52,122 nt of DNA from an uncultured Oscillospiraceae bacterium (lineage in GTDB: Bacteria; Bacillota; Clostridia; Oscillospirales; Oscillospiraceae), in the NCBI GenBank assembly GCA_947626905.1, contig CANQUE010000010.1, forward strand, positions 1-52,122, written 5' to 3'. The position numbers and the translations under genes are program-made. Of the stretch, positions 40,343-45,452 are shown piece after piece. The notes beneath the pieces are model-generated. The model was not told the DNA's origin and ran no database searches. It was given only the letters and a program-made list of their open reading frames with translations. The first letter of the stretch is position 1; each line of letters opens with the position of its first letter.

Positions 40343-40678
40343 ATGCCTATATCCGCGGACATCCTGCGGGGACACACGGATACCATCATCCTGGCCCAGC
40401 TGGAGGCCGGCGACAGTTACGGATGGAGGATCAACAAGACCGTCGCCCAGCGCACCGGCGGGGCGTACGGTTTCAAGGAGGCCACGCTGTACACCGCCTT
40501 CCGGCGCCTGGAGCAAAACGGCATGATCACCGCCTACTGGGGAGAGGACGGGCCCGGCGCCCGGCGGCGCTATTACGCCATCACCCCGGCGGGCAGAGAG
40601 CAGCTGGCGGCGGACCGGCGGGAGTGGGAGCAGACGCGGCGCGTGCTGAACGCGCTGATCGAGTTTGAGGAGGGCTGA
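40343..40678 (+). CDS. PadR family transcriptional regulator
   Basis: 111 residues, the short PadR type (subfamily 2). The winged helix has DTIILAQLEAGDSYGWRI at the start, KEATLYTAFRRLEQNGMI as the recognition helix, and the wing GARRRYYAITPAGREQL. A C-terminal helix for dimerisation follows. PadR regulators of this kind control the adjacent DUF1700/DUF4097 gene, as here, with 3 bp between them. GGAGGGAGCGGC precedes the ATG. Likely autoregulated through the inverted repeat at 40254-40274. Confidence 0.95.
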   Translation: MPISADILRGHTDTIILAQLEAGDSYGWRINKTVAQRTGGAYGFKEATLYTAFRRLEQNGMITAYWGEDGPGARRRYYAITPAGREQLAADRREWEQTRRVLNALIEFEEG

Positions 40679-40681
40679 AAA

Positions 40682-42079
40682 ATGGAGGAGATCAAGAGAA
40701 GATTCATGAACGATATCGCCGCCCGGCTGGCCGGAGCGGCGGAGAGCGACGCCAAATCGGAGATGACGGAGGAGCTGGCGGAGAATCTCACCGGCCGGTA
40801 CCAGGACATGGTGTCCGCCGGGATGCCGGCGGAGGAGGCCTATGGGCGGGCCATGGGTGAGCTGGGGGACGTGGACGAGCTGACGGCGTACCTGAACAGT
40901 CTGGAGCCGGAAGGGCCGGCCCGGACGGGGGAGAAGGACAGCCTGGACGGGCTGGTCCGCTCCCTGGGGCAGATCGCGGACCAGGCCGTGAAGGCCGCGG
41001 AGGACGCCCTGGGAAAGCTGAAGCGCAGCGGCGTGCGGTGGAGCGGCCAAGATGTGACATCCGTGGACATAGACCGGGACGGGAACGTGTCCGAGGCGGT
41101 CTTCTCCGACGGCCGGACCTATCGGAGCGGTACGACGGAGATCCATTTTGAGGGCCCGGGCGGCGGCGAAAAAGAGGAGCAGAGCGTCCCCTCTCAGGGG
41201 GTCTTTCGCCTGGACATGGAAACGGCCGGCGGCGACGTGGACCTGTATCTGGACGACGACCCGGACAGCCCTGTCCGGCTGGAGGGGAATCTGTCCCGGC
41301 TGGATGTGTTCGTGACGGCGGACGGCGTGCTCACCGTCCAGCCCAAATCCACCGCCAGCAACCAGTTTTTCACCTTCCGCGGCGCGTCCAGCCAGGACGT
41401 GTCCCTGACCATCCCGGCCCGGCGCTGGGAGAGCATCCGGGTGTTCACAGCCAGCGGCGACGTGGACATGGGCGACGAGCTGGAGGTCGATCGGCTCACC
41501 GTCCAGACGGCCAACGGGGACGTGAGCTGCCGGGTGCGCAGCTGCGGGAAGGCGAGGCTGAAGTCGGCCAGCGGGGATATCTCCCTGGAGGGGAGCGTCG
41601 GAGAGCTGGCCGTGGAAACAGCCAACGGGGACGTGGACTGCCGGGTGCAGGACTGCCGGCGGGCGGAAGTGAGATCGGCCAGCGGCGATATCGCCCTGAC
41701 CGGCGGCGCGGAGGAGCTGCGGGTGAAGTCGTACAACGGGGACGTGGCGCTGGAGGGCCCGGTGGGCGAGGCGGAGGTGTTCTCCTCCGCCGGGGACATC
41801 ACCCTGTCCGGCTCTGTGGCAAAGGTCCGGGCCGAATCCTACAGCGGGGACATCCATGTGGAGAGCATGACCCTGCCGGACGCCATGGCGCTGTCCTCCA
41901 AGAGCGGCGACGTCAGCGCCCGCATCCCGGATAACGGCCCGTTCCAGGTGCAGATCTCCAGCATCGGCGGCCGGGTGGACCTGCGGCCGTTCAGAAAGTG
42001 GCCCGGGACGGAGGACGCCTGTGAGCGCCGATATACGCTGACCAGCATCGGCGGCGATGTGTCGCTGAGCAAGTATTGA
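40682..42079 (+). CDS. DUF4097 beta-solenoid protein with DUF1700-like N-terminus
   Basis: 465 residues. The first 80 are a DUF1700-like helical part (RRFMNDIAARL, then GRYQDMVSAGMPAEEAYGRAMGELGDVDELTAYL). After an amphipathic linker, residues about 170-460 form the DUF4097 beta-solenoid. Here the pattern SASGDI, TANGDV or SYNGDV recurs roughly every 19-20 residues at least ten times. No signal peptide or membrane helix is visible, so it is probably cytoplasmic, unlike many relatives with a helix. It is co-transcribed with padR. Function unknown; PadR-DUF1700-DUF4097 units are common in Firmicutes and respond to envelope stress in some. Confidence 0.9.
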   Translation: MEEIKRRFMNDIAARLAGAAESDAKSEMTEELAENLTGRYQDMVSAGMPAEEAYGRAMGELGDVDELTAYLNSLEPEGPARTGEKDSLDGLVRSLGQIADQAVKAAEDALGKLKRSGVRWSGQDVTSVDIDRDGNVSEAVFSDGRTYRSGTTEIHFEGPGGGEKEEQSVPSQGVFRLDMETAGGDVDLYLDDDPDSPVRLEGNLSRLDVFVTADGVLTVQPKSTASNQFFTFRGASSQDVSLTIPARRWESIRVFTASGDVDMGDELEVDRLTVQTANGDVSCRVRSCGKARLKSASGDISLEGSVGELAVETANGDVDCRVQDCRRAEVRSASGDIALTGGAEELRVKSYNGDVALEGPVGEAEVFSSAGDITLSGSVAKVRAESYSGDIHVESMTLPDAMALSSKSGDVSARIPDNGPFQVQISSIGGRVDLRPFRKWPGTEDACERRYTLTSIGGDVSLSKY

Positions 42080-42163: not shown

Positions 42164-42949
42164 CTATTTCATGTAGTACGCCGTCACCAGGCTGGAGGAC
42201 AGCACGCCGTCCACTTCGCCCATCATCAGGGCCTGGAACAGGCCCTCCGTATTGGTCTGATATGTGACCGAGCCCAGGCTCTTCACGAATTTTTCGTCGG
42301 TGTACAGCACCCGCTCGTCCGCCACGGTCACGCCCAGCGTCTTGCCCTTCAGGCCGGACCGGCGGCGGATGTGGCTGCCCGTCCGGGCCACCAGCACATA
42401 CCGGCTGGTCAGATAGGCGGGGGACACGTCCAGATCCCCCACGTCGGATTCCGGCACGGACATGGCCACGTCGATGTTTCCGGCGTTCAGCTCGATGGTG
42501 GCGTCCGCCAGGTCGATGGGGTAGATCAGCAGATCCCAGCCCAACAGGCCGCAGACATAGCCGATCAGCTCCACGTCGAAGCCCCGGTAGCCGTCGTTCT
42601 CAAAATAACTCAGGGGCATATTGGATATGTCCACCCCCACGGTGATGGTGCGGTGGGGGACTTCCTCCTGGAGCTCTTCCAGCGCCGTTTCGTTTCCCCT
42701 GACGGAGATCAGGTCCTCTCCGAACCAGTTGGAGGAGAGGATGCGCAGGGTGTTGCCCGAGGCCAGCACCTGCAGCGCGGCGGACACATAGTCCCGCAGC
42801 CTGTCCCCCTTGCGGAAAGCGAGATAATAGTTGGTCTCGCCGGAGTAATCGTCCACTATCCGGTAGCCCCCTCCGCCGTCGCAGGCGGTCAGGGGCAGGA
42901 GCAGCGCCAAACAAAGAAGCAGGCAGACCAGGGTCCGAAACGTTCTCAT
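42164..42949 (-). CDS. Lipoprotein with a circularly permuted SBP_bac_3-like solute-binding domain
   Basis: 261 residues. The signal peptide ends LLPLTAC, lipid Cys at 23. Residues 29-78 (YRIVDDYSG, NYYLAFRKGDRLRDYVSAAL, ILSSNWFGED) look like the C-terminal end of an amino-acid solute-binding protein (typically YYIAVRKGD...LL..IN.AL...G...KWFG). Residues about 101-261 start like the N-terminus of the same family (ITVGVDISNMPLSYFENDGY, RGFDVELIGYVCGLLGW). They continue through GLKGKTLGVTVADE and stop at GEVDGVLSSSLVTAYYMK, just where the other piece would begin. The order is therefore rotated. GAGGAGG lies 6 bases before the ATG. It follows the amino-acid ABC operon behind a terminator and may serve as an extra receptor. 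Confidence 0.8.
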   Translation of the reverse strand: MRTFRTLVCLLLCLALLLPLTACDGGGGYRIVDDYSGETNYYLAFRKGDRLRDYVSAALQVLASGNTLRILSSNWFGEDLISVRGNETALEELQEEVPHRTITVGVDISNMPLSYFENDGYRGFDVELIGYVCGLLGWDLLIYPIDLADATIELNAGNIDVAMSVPESDVGDLDVSPAYLTSRYVLVARTGSHIRRRSGLKGKTLGVTVADERVLYTDEKFVKSLGSVTYQTNTEGLFQALMMGEVDGVLSSSLVTAYYMK

Positions 42950-42966: not shown

Positions 42967-43004
42967 AAGATAAAAGCCGCACGGGTCCCGTGCGGCTTTA
43001 TATT
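42967..43004 (-). terminator. Terminator of the amino-acid ABC operon
   Basis: AAAGCCGCACGGG and CCCGTGCGGCTTT pair with a very small loop. On the minus strand TTTTATC follows. Readthrough into the next lipoprotein gene is possible. Confidence 0.85.
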
Positions 43005-43024
43005 ACCTGATATCGGGGGGAAAA

Positions 43025-43828
43025 TCAAGGGCCGGTGAAGCGATCGCTCTGGTGATAGCTCTCCAGGAACCGGCGGGTCCGCTCCTGGACCGGGTCTTCC
43101 AGCACCTGGCTGGGGGGACCCTCCTCCACCACCTGGCCGCCGTCCATGAAGATGACCCGGCTGGACACGTCCCGGGCAAAGGCCATCTCATGGGTGACGA
43201 TGATCATGGTGGTGCGCTGGTCCGCCAGAGAGCGGATCACCCGCAGCACCTCGTGGGTCAGCTCCGGGTCCAGGGCGCTGGTGGGCTCGTCAAAGCACAG
43301 GATGTCCGGGCTCAAAGCCAGGGCCCGGGCGATGGCCACCCGCTGCTGCTGGCCGCCGGACAGCTGGTGGGGGTAGCTGTCCATCCGGGAGGACAGGCCC
43401 ATCTGGTCCAGCAGCGCCCGGGCCCGTTGGTCCAGCTGGTCCAGAAGCTCCTTTTTGCGGGCCTTATAGTCCGGCTGCTCCTTTGCCAAAAGCCGTCCGG
43501 CCAGCATCACGTTCTCCAGGGCGGTGTATTGGGGGAATAGGTTGAACGATTGGAACACCAGCCCGAAGTGCAGCCGGCTGCGGCGGATGTCCGCTTCCCG
43601 CCGGGAGGCCGCCGCGGCCGCGTCAAAGAGGACCTGGCCGTTGACGGCGATGGACCCCCCGTCCGGCGTTTCCAAAAAGTTCAGGCACCGCAGCAGCGTG
43701 GTCTTGCCGGAGCCGGAGGAGCCGATGATGCTCAGCACCTGCCCCTGCTCCAGGGAGAAGCTGATGCCCTTGAGCACCTCCGTGTTGCCGAAGCGCTTGC
43801 GGATATCTTTTACGTCCAGGATAGCCAT
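43025..43828 (-). CDS. Amino-acid ABC transporter ATP-binding protein (GlnQ/HisP type)
   Basis: 267 residues. Walker A GSSGSGKTTLLRCLNFLE, Q-loop VFQSFNLFPQYTALENVM, signature LSGGQQQRVAIARAL, Walker B ILCFDEPTSALDPELT and the D-loop/H-switch IVTHEMAFAR are textbook for the polar amino-acid family. There is an insert of about 15 residues between the Walker A and Q-loop regions (FDAAAAASRREADI), and another before the signature. GAGGAGG lies 7 bases before the ATG at 43828. It starts 14 bp after the permease gene and is the last gene before the terminator. Confidence 0.95.
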   Translation of the reverse strand: MAILDVKDIRKRFGNTEVLKGISFSLEQGQVLSIIGSSGSGKTTLLRCLNFLETPDGGSIAVNGQVLFDAAAAASRREADIRRSRLHFGLVFQSFNLFPQYTALENVMLAGRLLAKEQPDYKARKKELLDQLDQRARALLDQMGLSSRMDSYPHQLSGGQQQRVAIARALALSPDILCFDEPTSALDPELTHEVLRVIRSLADQRTTMIIVTHEMAFARDVSSRVIFMDGGQVVEEGPPSQVLEDPVQERTRRFLESYHQSDRFTGP

Positions 43829-43842
43829 GGGCGTGCCTCCTC

Positions 43843-44529
43843 TCAGCGGAAATAGTCCAGGCGCTTTTCCAGCCGCCCCAGGGCCACCGTGACCACGCCG
43901 TTGAACAGCAGATAGTACACGGCGGTGAAAAACAGCGGCCAGATGGCCCCGGAGATGCCGTGGGAGCCCCTCATGAAGGACTGACCGGCCCAAATGATCT
44001 CCTGCAGAGCGATGATCCGGGCCAGGGCGGTGTCCTTCACCAGGGTGATGATCTCGTTGGACATGGGGGGCACGATGCGCTTGATGACCTGCAGGAGCGT
44101 CACTCTATAGAATATCTGCCCGCGGGTCATGCCCAGCACCAGCCCCGCCTCCTGCTGGCCCTTGGGGATGGACTGGATGCCGCCCCGGTATATCTCGGAG
44201 AAGTAGCAGGCGTAGTTGAAAATGAAGGCGATAGAGGAGGCCAGAAACCGCCCGGACTCGCCGCCGCCCCACCAGTTGTTGTGCAGCTCGATGCCGGGGA
44301 AGTAGTAGATGATGAGCAGCTGTATCATCAAAGGCGTGCCCCGCACCACCCATATCACCAGCCGGGTCAGGGCGCTCAGGGGCTTGAAGCGGCTCATGGA
44401 GCCGAAGGCGATCACCAGCCCCAGGGGGATGGCCCCCAGGCCGGTGACGAAAAACAGCTTCAGGGTCTGCAGAAAGCCCACGTTCAGCGCCTGGAACACC
44501 ACGGGGAACTGCTGGAGCATCAGGTTCAT
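43843..44529 (-). CDS. Amino-acid ABC transporter permease (HisM/GlnP type)
   Basis: 228 residues with about five helices. VGFLQTLKLFFVTGLGAIPLG, RGTPLMIQLLIIYYFPG, NYACYFSEIYRGGIQSIPKG with QQEAGLVLG, and the EAA loop ending MSNEIITLVKDTALA are the HEQRo/His-Glu-Gln permease signatures. A single permease gene implies a homodimer. It lies 96 bp behind the binding-protein gene across two strong hairpins and 14 bp before the ATPase. Confidence 0.95.
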   Translation of the reverse strand: MNLMLQQFPVVFQALNVGFLQTLKLFFVTGLGAIPLGLVIAFGSMSRFKPLSALTRLVIWVVRGTPLMIQLLIIYYFPGIELHNNWWGGGESGRFLASSIAFIFNYACYFSEIYRGGIQSIPKGQQEAGLVLGMTRGQIFYRVTLLQVIKRIVPPMSNEIITLVKDTALARIIALQEIIWAGQSFMRGSHGISGAIWPLFFTAVYYLLFNGVVTVALGRLEKRLDYFR

Positions 44530-44625: not shown

Positions 44626-45420
44626 TCACTGCTCGATCAGCGCGGCCTGGACGCCGTAGGTCTCGGCGATGGCCTGCATGGAGCCGTCGGCATAGCTGGC
44701 GGCGAAGAAGTCGTTCAGGGCCGCGGCCAGGTCGGAGCCCTTGCGGAAGCCCACGCCGTACTGCTCGCTGTTCAGGTTCAAGGTGTTGACCAGGTCGGGA
44801 TAGCTGGTGCCCTCGCCCACCATGGCGGCGGCCATCAGCAGGTCGATGACGGCGGCGTCGGAGGTGCCGGCTGCCACTTCCATCAGCGCGGCGGCCTGGG
44901 TCTCCATCTCCGTGAAGGTGTAGCCCAGGGCCTCCACCTCCGCCTTGCCGGCGCTGCCGGCCTCCACGGCGAAGGTCAGGTCCTTCATATCCTCCACGGT
45001 CTCATAGTCCGCCGCCTTGTCCGCCGGAAGGATGATCGTCTGGGCGTTCTGGCAGTAGGGGTTGGAGCACTCCATAGAGGTGGTCACCTCGTCGGTGAGG
45101 GTCATGCCGTTCCAGACCACGTCGATGGACTTGTTGTCCAGCTCCTGGGTCTTGTAGTCCCAGGTGATCTCCTGGAATTCCACCTCCACGCCCAGGCTCT
45201 CGGCAAAGGCCGCGGCCATGTCCGCGTCAAAGCCGATCCAATTGCCATCGGCGTCTTTGTAGTCCATGGGCTCGAACTCGGTGATGCCCACCACCAGGGT
45301 GCCCTTGTCCTTCACATAGGCAAGATCGCTCTGTTCGGCGTCCCCGGCATTGGAGCCGCCGCAGGCGGCCAGGGCCAGGAGCATCGCCAGGGAAAGGATG
45401 ACGGCAAGTATCTTTTTCAT
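44626..45420 (-). CDS. Amino-acid ABC transporter substrate-binding lipoprotein (SBP_bac_3)
   Basis: 264 residues. Signal peptide ends LLALAAC. The SBP_bac_3 domain runs in normal order: GTLVVGITEFEPMDYKDADG, IGFDADMAAAFAESLGVEVE, DVVWNGMTLTDE, FAVEAGSAGKAEVEAL, AAVIDLLMAAAMV and finally YGVGFRKGSDLAAALNDFF. It should deliver a polar amino acid to the permease downstream. Of two nearby ATG codons I choose 45420, 9 bases after AGGAGG, rather than 45426 at 3 bases. The contrast with the rotated domain at 42164 in the same neighbourhood is informative. Confidence 0.95.
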   Translation of the reverse strand: MKKILAVILSLAMLLALAACGGSNAGDAEQSDLAYVKDKGTLVVGITEFEPMDYKDADGNWIGFDADMAAAFAESLGVEVEFQEITWDYKTQELDNKSIDVVWNGMTLTDEVTTSMECSNPYCQNAQTIILPADKAADYETVEDMKDLTFAVEAGSAGKAEVEALGYTFTEMETQAAALMEVAAGTSDAAVIDLLMAAAMVGEGTSYPDLVNTLNLNSEQYGVGFRKGSDLAAALNDFFAASYADGSMQAIAETYGVQAALIEQ

Positions 45421-45452
45421 GTTCATTGTCCTCCTATCGGGTTGTGTTTAGC

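Follow-up and report, generated by a model that had tools for sequence, protein, structure and literature searches.

A family 3 solute-binding lipoprotein in circularly permuted order, the probable recurrent re-cutting of its family and the loss of the amino-acid pocket in its class

Behind an ABC importer operon of an uncultured Oscillospiraceae bacterium, a lipoprotein gene appears to encode the two parts of a solute-binding protein (SBP) in the wrong order. A sequence-only reading had proposed that its product is a circularly permuted SBP_bac_3 domain, which raises the questions of whether the order is indeed swapped, how often such a swap has happened and what the resulting protein does. 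The window analyzed here is the whole stretch of 52,122 nucleotides from this genome. The features of the locus are as follows.

42164..42949, minus strand: lipoprotein gene assigned from profile matches to the circularly permuted family 3 SBPs (261 aa, ATG start)
42881..42949, minus strand: residues 1-23, a signal peptide with the lipobox LTAC and its Cys 23 (from the translation)
42722..42865, minus strand: equivalent of the C-terminal end of ordinary SBPs, residues 29-76 (profile positions 170-218 for residues 29-75)
42650..42721, minus strand: linker between the former C- and N-termini, residues 77-100 (within the linker range of hinge-permuted ORFs)
42170..42649, minus strand: equivalent of the N-terminal part of ordinary SBPs, residues 101-260, the chain ending at the second hinge (profile positions 1-164, Pfam, NCBIfam)
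42973..42999, minus strand: terminator-like hairpin in the interval between the ATPase and the permuted gene, also present in 8 orthologous loci
43000..43028, minus strand: promoter-like element TTGATT-17-TAATAT, read by eye and a candidate only, overlapping the ATPase stop codon
43025..43828, minus strand: ABC ATPase of the operon (Pfam ABC_tran)
43843..44529, minus strand: permease of the operon (Pfam BPD_transp_1)
44626..45426, minus strand: ordinary-order SBP of the operon (Pfam SBP_bac_3, profile 2-130 of 132)

The window protein has the lipobox cysteine of a bacterial lipoprotein (Cys 23, within the lipobox LTAC). Pfam SBP_bac_3 (PF00497) matched its residues 102-194 to profile positions 1-97 with 53.4 bits against a curated cut-off of 26.4, and NCBIfam GlnH placed residues 97-260 on positions 22-187 of 248, counted over two stretches. 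The order of the pieces was read from a test profile of 219 positions, which was built from 35 ordinary-order SBPs collinear with the operon SBP and included no permuted sequence. Against this profile, the short stretch of residues 29-75 aligned to positions 170-218 (i-E 2.5e-5 at a database size of 1), and the longer stretch of residues 101-260 to positions 1-164 (i-E 2.6e-20). In place of the linear SBP_bac_3 order, with the N-terminal part followed by the C-terminal part, the window protein has the two pieces swapped; at the level of the sequence it contains one complete domain with a single joining linker. Residues 29-76 correspond to the last strand and helices of lobe 1 in ordinary SBPs, and residues 101-260 to the first part of lobe 1 followed by lobe 2. 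Homologues in the same order, a search for which had been proposed together with the permutation, were found: 37/37 permuted sequences (the window protein and homologues) showed the swapped two-domain order, the first domain running from profile positions 152-180 to 218-219 and the second from 1-3 to 155-167.

The short N-terminal piece was additionally compared with shuffled sequences. Residues 24-100 scored 19.6 bits with a profile of the C-terminal part, while the best of 5000 shuffles reached 10.0. In a more stringent search, with a database size of 10,000 and a cut-off of 0.1, the N-terminal piece of the window protein was missed; the case for this piece therefore draws on the shuffle control and on homologues with better scores, in part by orthology. 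Eight orthologues from metagenome-assembled genomes titled Oscillospiraceae share 66-80% identity with the window protein, seven of them over residues 1-261 and one over residues 20-261; their isolate names ('Lapin') suggest a rabbit gut origin. Altogether, the window protein is almost certainly a lipid-anchored, circularly permuted SBP_bac_3 domain, which by its sequence starts at the hinge where lobe 2 gives way to lobe 1, passes through a linker of about 24 residues and ends with lobe 2. Profile order and shuffle control thereby bear out the permutation, the breakpoint and the completeness of the domain that had been read from the letters. The contrast with the operon SBP of the same locus holds as well, since the latter has the ordinary order, although its gene spans 44626-45426 rather than 44626-45420, the earlier reading having begun it two codons later.

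Structure-based searches added little to this picture. AlphaFold2 gave a mean pLDDT of 41.6 for the permuted protein with its 8 orthologues and of 49.1 for an ordinary-SBP control of equal depth (9 sequences), both alignments being too shallow; because the ordinary-order control also failed at this depth, the low score is uninformative on permutation. With this poor model, Foldseek returned no match at E <= 0.001; its top match, to a glutamine-binding protein (E 0.058), was given no weight. A search for a solved permuted relative matched 179 PDB sequences, and in the top 60 of them no permuted order was seen in the best-matching stretch, which in each starts at profile position 64 or later.

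We also looked at the organization of the locus. The hairpin between the ATPase and the permuted gene is present in 9/9 loci (the window and the 8 orthologous ones), with a stem of varying sequence, and by eye the spacing TTGATT-17-T-A-N-T-A-T ahead of it recurs in all nine. The promoter-like element was not listed by a consensus promoter scan and owes part of its conservation to the overlap with the ATPase stop codon. Simple co-transcription of the permuted gene with the operon appears doubtful, as the hairpin and the promoter-like element separate it from the ATPase; as a candidate arrangement, the operon would end at a terminator and the permuted gene would then have a start of its own.

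Further observations concern the neighborhood and the genome. The operon SBP of the window has Val at the arginine position of the TxxR motif of amino-acid SBPs, and in 5/8 orthologous loci (L004 and L006-L009; L-numbers denote genomic regions fetched around SBP matches) the ordinary operon SBP has a signal peptide without a lipobox, while its permuted partner has one. On the opposite strand, two genes at 40343-42079 face the permuted gene, one for a putative PadR-like regulator and the other for a protein in which SGDV/NGDV motifs recur. Elsewhere in the window genome (G000:C2:53013-53969; L044, L047), an ORF of 1132 aa has two SBP_bac_3 matches and is probably a BvgS-like sensor.

How widespread is the permuted order? 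In a protein search whose table was read by eye, matches spanning both pieces appeared in at least 80 of 400 genomes of the window's family, and such homologues occur in many genera. The regions fetched, namely 60 in the window's family, 39 from other families of the order or class together with special cases, and 8 more, were picked as looking permuted or tandem and therefore give no frequency. A less biased sample is provided by the 30 best places found with the ordinary operon SBP as query, of which 4 were permuted (L067, L068, L071, L073) and 26 ordinary. Junction-spanning matches in ORFs longer than 700 aa were not counted as permuted, as tandem domains give the same signal.

Three cut points were distinguished on the 219-position profile: around position 165 (P165), where the chain returns through the hinge from lobe 2 into lobe 1, around 89-107 (P95) and around 123-128 (P125). 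The distinct ORFs comprise 105 of the P165 type, 12 of the P95 type (L067, L068, L113, L181, L182, L188-L193, L195) and 3 of the P125 type (L071, L165, L166); some order labels were set by hand, L135 being assigned to the hinge type and L108, L103 and L115 being forced to P165. In the 105 hinge-permuted ORFs the joining linker measures 22-42 residues. Truncated tandem SBP-SBP homologues, which would have contradicted the sequence-only reading, were not seen: no scanned SBP ORF had more than two profile pieces, a third being absent from every one. Verified P165 ORFs span 12 families of the class and P95 ORFs seven families, one of them outside the window's class (L188, L195); from the Oscillospiraceae titles we infer that the phylum concerned is Bacillota.

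Elsewhere in the phylum, permuted ORFs head SBP-permease-ATPase operons. Among 37 permuted ORFs, 30 are followed by a permease and an ATPase on the same strand (with a short ATPase piece in L161 and L184), 2 by a permease only and 5 by neither; in a second set the arrangement with permease and ATPase was seen in 7/7. The lipobox test was passed by 83/105 hinge-permuted, 12/12 P95, 3/3 P125 and 50/57 ordinary ORFs.

The relationship between permuted and ordinary proteins was analyzed in a maximum-likelihood tree, for which the protein pieces were placed on profile columns so that like was compared with like. The rows were reduced from 174 to 105 by thinning at 70% identity within each label and then to 72; this final cut kept 11 of the 40 window-type rows (the class defined below) and removed four distant ordinary rows (L039, L041-L043). 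Nine short or single-part rows had been dropped (three of the window protein, namely L001, L046 and the window itself, as well as L008, L103, L115 at 8146, L116 at 12202, L123 and L129), and L188-L195 entered neither the tree nor the pocket count below. Order labels came from the profile and not from the tree, although a FastTree version had been seen beforehand. Ordinary and permuted rows interleave on the 72-row tree, and a single clade of all 37 P165 rows was rejected (p-AU 6.8e-5, log-likelihood lower by 768); the rearrangement therefore probably recurred. The minimum number of changes was 12 with two states, 15 with four states and 10 between ordinary and P165, counts that do not separate gain from reversal. 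In addition, close relatives occur in opposite orders, with identities over all positions, the C-terminal part and the N-terminal part of 71/74/71% for L126/L072, 70/62/74% for L073/L069, 74/57/80% for L135/L105 and 68/67/68% for L113/L133.

Four fused tandem genes, each with two complete SBP domains in one ORF, offer a view on how permutation may have arisen. The tandem copies are 85.4% identical at the protein level in L078:3413-5092, 91.2% in L167:1503-3863, 94.1% in L183:3374-5236 and 80.5% in L194:2091-3674. Three of these ORFs (L078, L183, L194) adjoin separate permease and ATPase genes, and that of L167 is long enough for a fused permease. Fused tandem SBPs are otherwise found as GlnPQ-type proteins and BvgS-type sensors. 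The four tandems contain the same junction of C-terminal and N-terminal parts as the permuted proteins, but have two complete domains per chain instead of one. Trimming of both ends after formation of such a fused pair would leave a permuted protein, and on the strength of these four candidates this is the route that we consider rather probable.

Taken together, permutation of family 3 SBPs has very likely happened repeatedly in the phylum, at three cut points. A single origin, with the ordinary-order proteins among the permuted ones being reversions or misplaced rows, would agree with change counts that cannot tell gain from loss and with a tree in which one branch is long and some rows have an unusual composition. 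We regard it as improbable in view of the three different cut points, the rejection of one P165 clade and the pairs of about 70% identity in opposite orders.

The ligand pocket sets the class of the window protein apart. This window type was defined as the clade of the FastTree version that holds the window orthologues, together with a sister group (L117, L118, L120, L137) and L127. The pocket positions (aromatic, Thr/Ser, Arg, Ser/Thr, Asp) were chosen on the assumption that the contacts of GlnBP and LAO apply; we scored the aromatic position 9, T67, S115 and D156 and left out R72, which the ordinary SBPs here keep in 28/63 rows. All four positions are kept in 58/63 ordinary rows (tandem halves included), 45/50 other permuted rows and 0/61 window-type rows; with R72 added, the numbers are 23, 32 and 0. 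The window's own row is absent from this count, which includes orthologues such as L002 and L003. In L002, for example, the aromatic position is N, T67 is replaced by S, R72 by S, S115 by N and D156 by S. An alpha-amino-acid pocket of the known kind is thus lacking in the window type, and the aromatic residue, T67, R72 and S115 are lost in most rows, with varying replacements. D156 is kept in 37/59 rows, and ligand binding may thus persist in part of the class. Much of the remaining signature is retained (G5, P11, G23, L54 and D60 at 1.0, R189 at 0.97), but W47, K50, Q87, E182 and G185, conserved in ordinary SBPs, fall to 0.02-0.16; given these lost columns, fold and surface may differ too. 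The permuted SBPs at the head of operons, given their place and their retained pocket, are most naturally read as proteins that bind and deliver amino acids in the ordinary way.

The genomic setting of the window type is mixed. It was counted for 61 permuted genes from the fetched regions and the window, after 12 operon-heading or divergent ones had been set aside; this set overlaps with the 61 pocket rows but is not identical to them. Transporter genes on the same strand lie within 4.5 kb upstream in 37/61, with SBP and permease in 33/61. Within this distance and strand no transporter gene was detected in the other 24/61, one of which is near a contig end. A transporter operon is nearby on the opposite strand in L114, L116 and L119.

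Two other kinds of neighbor were noticed. In 13/40 loci from several genera, a gene of one cluster lies near the permuted gene, usually downstream; its one Pfam-tested member (L110:9051-9917) is a SAM-dependent methyltransferase. In most of these 13 loci it is followed by paired ATPases of Ecf-like appearance and a likely EcfT. In 7/40 loci (L128:6858-7775 and six similar ones), a gene of another cluster lies about 1 kb upstream of the permuted gene, and its one Pfam-tested member, from L128, is an MscS-type channel.

What, then, could a protein without the pocket do? One possible explanation is that the window lineage kept much of the fold signature, lost the residues that contact the amino acid and became a 'pseudo-SBP', which would be tethered at its hinge side next to a partner in the membrane, such as an ABC importer, and modulate this partner without carrying an amino acid. 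We favor such an accessory, pocket-less lipoprotein, tentatively and at somewhat below even odds, over the next best account, although a role as a transporter subunit sits poorly with the 24/61 copies that have no detected transporter gene upstream and with the copies that lie beside the methyltransferase/Ecf-like block or the MscS channel. The word 'receptor', used in the sequence-only reading, is accordingly doubtful for a class that has lost its amino-acid pocket.

The next best account, a second binding protein that supplies the same permease with some ligand other than an ordinary alpha-amino acid, is possible with a lower probability. It would suit the commonest setting, behind SBP, permease and ATPase, the invariant stretches special to the window protein and its 8 orthologues (e.g. 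SHIRRRS and YQTNT), the purifying selection and the retention of D156, but the variable pocket replacements look like loss rather than one new specificity, and the 24/61 copies without an upstream transporter gene argue against it too. The permuted gene is under purifying selection, its dN/dS against the 8 orthologues being 0.30-0.57 (0.25-0.47 for the operon SBP), and this, together with constant length, speaks against the idea that the gene is what is left of a tandem SBP-SBP, truncated or degenerate and about to be lost. Tandem SBP-SBP genes do occur in related bacteria and the pocket is degenerate; since the two pieces, joined by linkers of 22-42 residues, make up a single domain without a third piece, and homologues spanning both pieces occur in many genera, a remnant is highly improbable. 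As a whole, the picture of a permuted family 3 domain, recurrent re-cutting and a pocket-less accessory lipoprotein in the window class appears moderately probable.

How does this compare with known systems? Family 3 SBPs (PF00497 SBP_bac_3; GlnH, HisJ/LAO), which are Type II proteins, share with the window protein sequence homology over the whole domain, the lipid anchor and the ABC operon context; it differs from them in its swapped pieces and its class in the lost pocket residues. A close parallel is TpMglB-2 (Tp0684), a glucose-binding Type I lipoprotein that is circularly permuted, has been crystallised and undergoes a conformational change; the available text of its report proposes a 'Type Ic', mentions relatives in Gram-positive bacteria and raises anchoring as a possible reason (PMC4990184). 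Both are natural circular permutations of a tethered binding protein, but TpMglB-2 has a Type I fold, a sugar ligand and another cut point, and the same text describes one topology and not several (PMC4990184). The window protein, homologous to family 3, falls outside the Type I/Cluster B fold of Type Ic. Circular permutation among binding proteins is also on record for a family of glycine-betaine-binding proteins, molybdate-binding proteins and CysB, which according to the available part of the source was found by structure, with less than 24% sequence identity at detection, and is not family 3 (PMC2395249). As far as their available text goes, three further papers concern permutation search (PMC12667903), engineered sensors (PMC7683729) and fluorescent proteins (PMC8666671) and not a natural permutation of family 3. 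In the open-licence literature searched, none was found for family 3 SBPs. The claim that this is not a described receptor class thus stands for family 3, where the case is apparently unreported in that literature, but not for binding proteins at large, as permuted members of other subfamilies are known.

For annotation, these results mean that collinear profiles can misread permuted SBPs as fragments, Pfam having covered residues 102-194 only. For the evolution of the family, repeated re-cutting via fused tandems may have shifted the lipid anchor away from lobe 1, either to the hinge or onto lobe 2, with permuted forms replacing the ordinary SBP in ABC operons and the window lineage becoming a pocket-less accessory subunit. 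This full sequence of events is conceivable, if on balance doubtful; recurrence is its best supported part, whereas it is a proposal that repositioning of the anchor was the advantage under selection, and so is the accessory role. Binding proteins serve as model folds and biosensor scaffolds, and their permutants are usually engineered. Here, natural family 3 permutants come with three cut points, with unpermuted relatives of up to 74% identity and with fused tandems in other genomes, and this opens the duplication route to direct tests, as well as the question of how the position of the anchor affects docking to the ABC importer.
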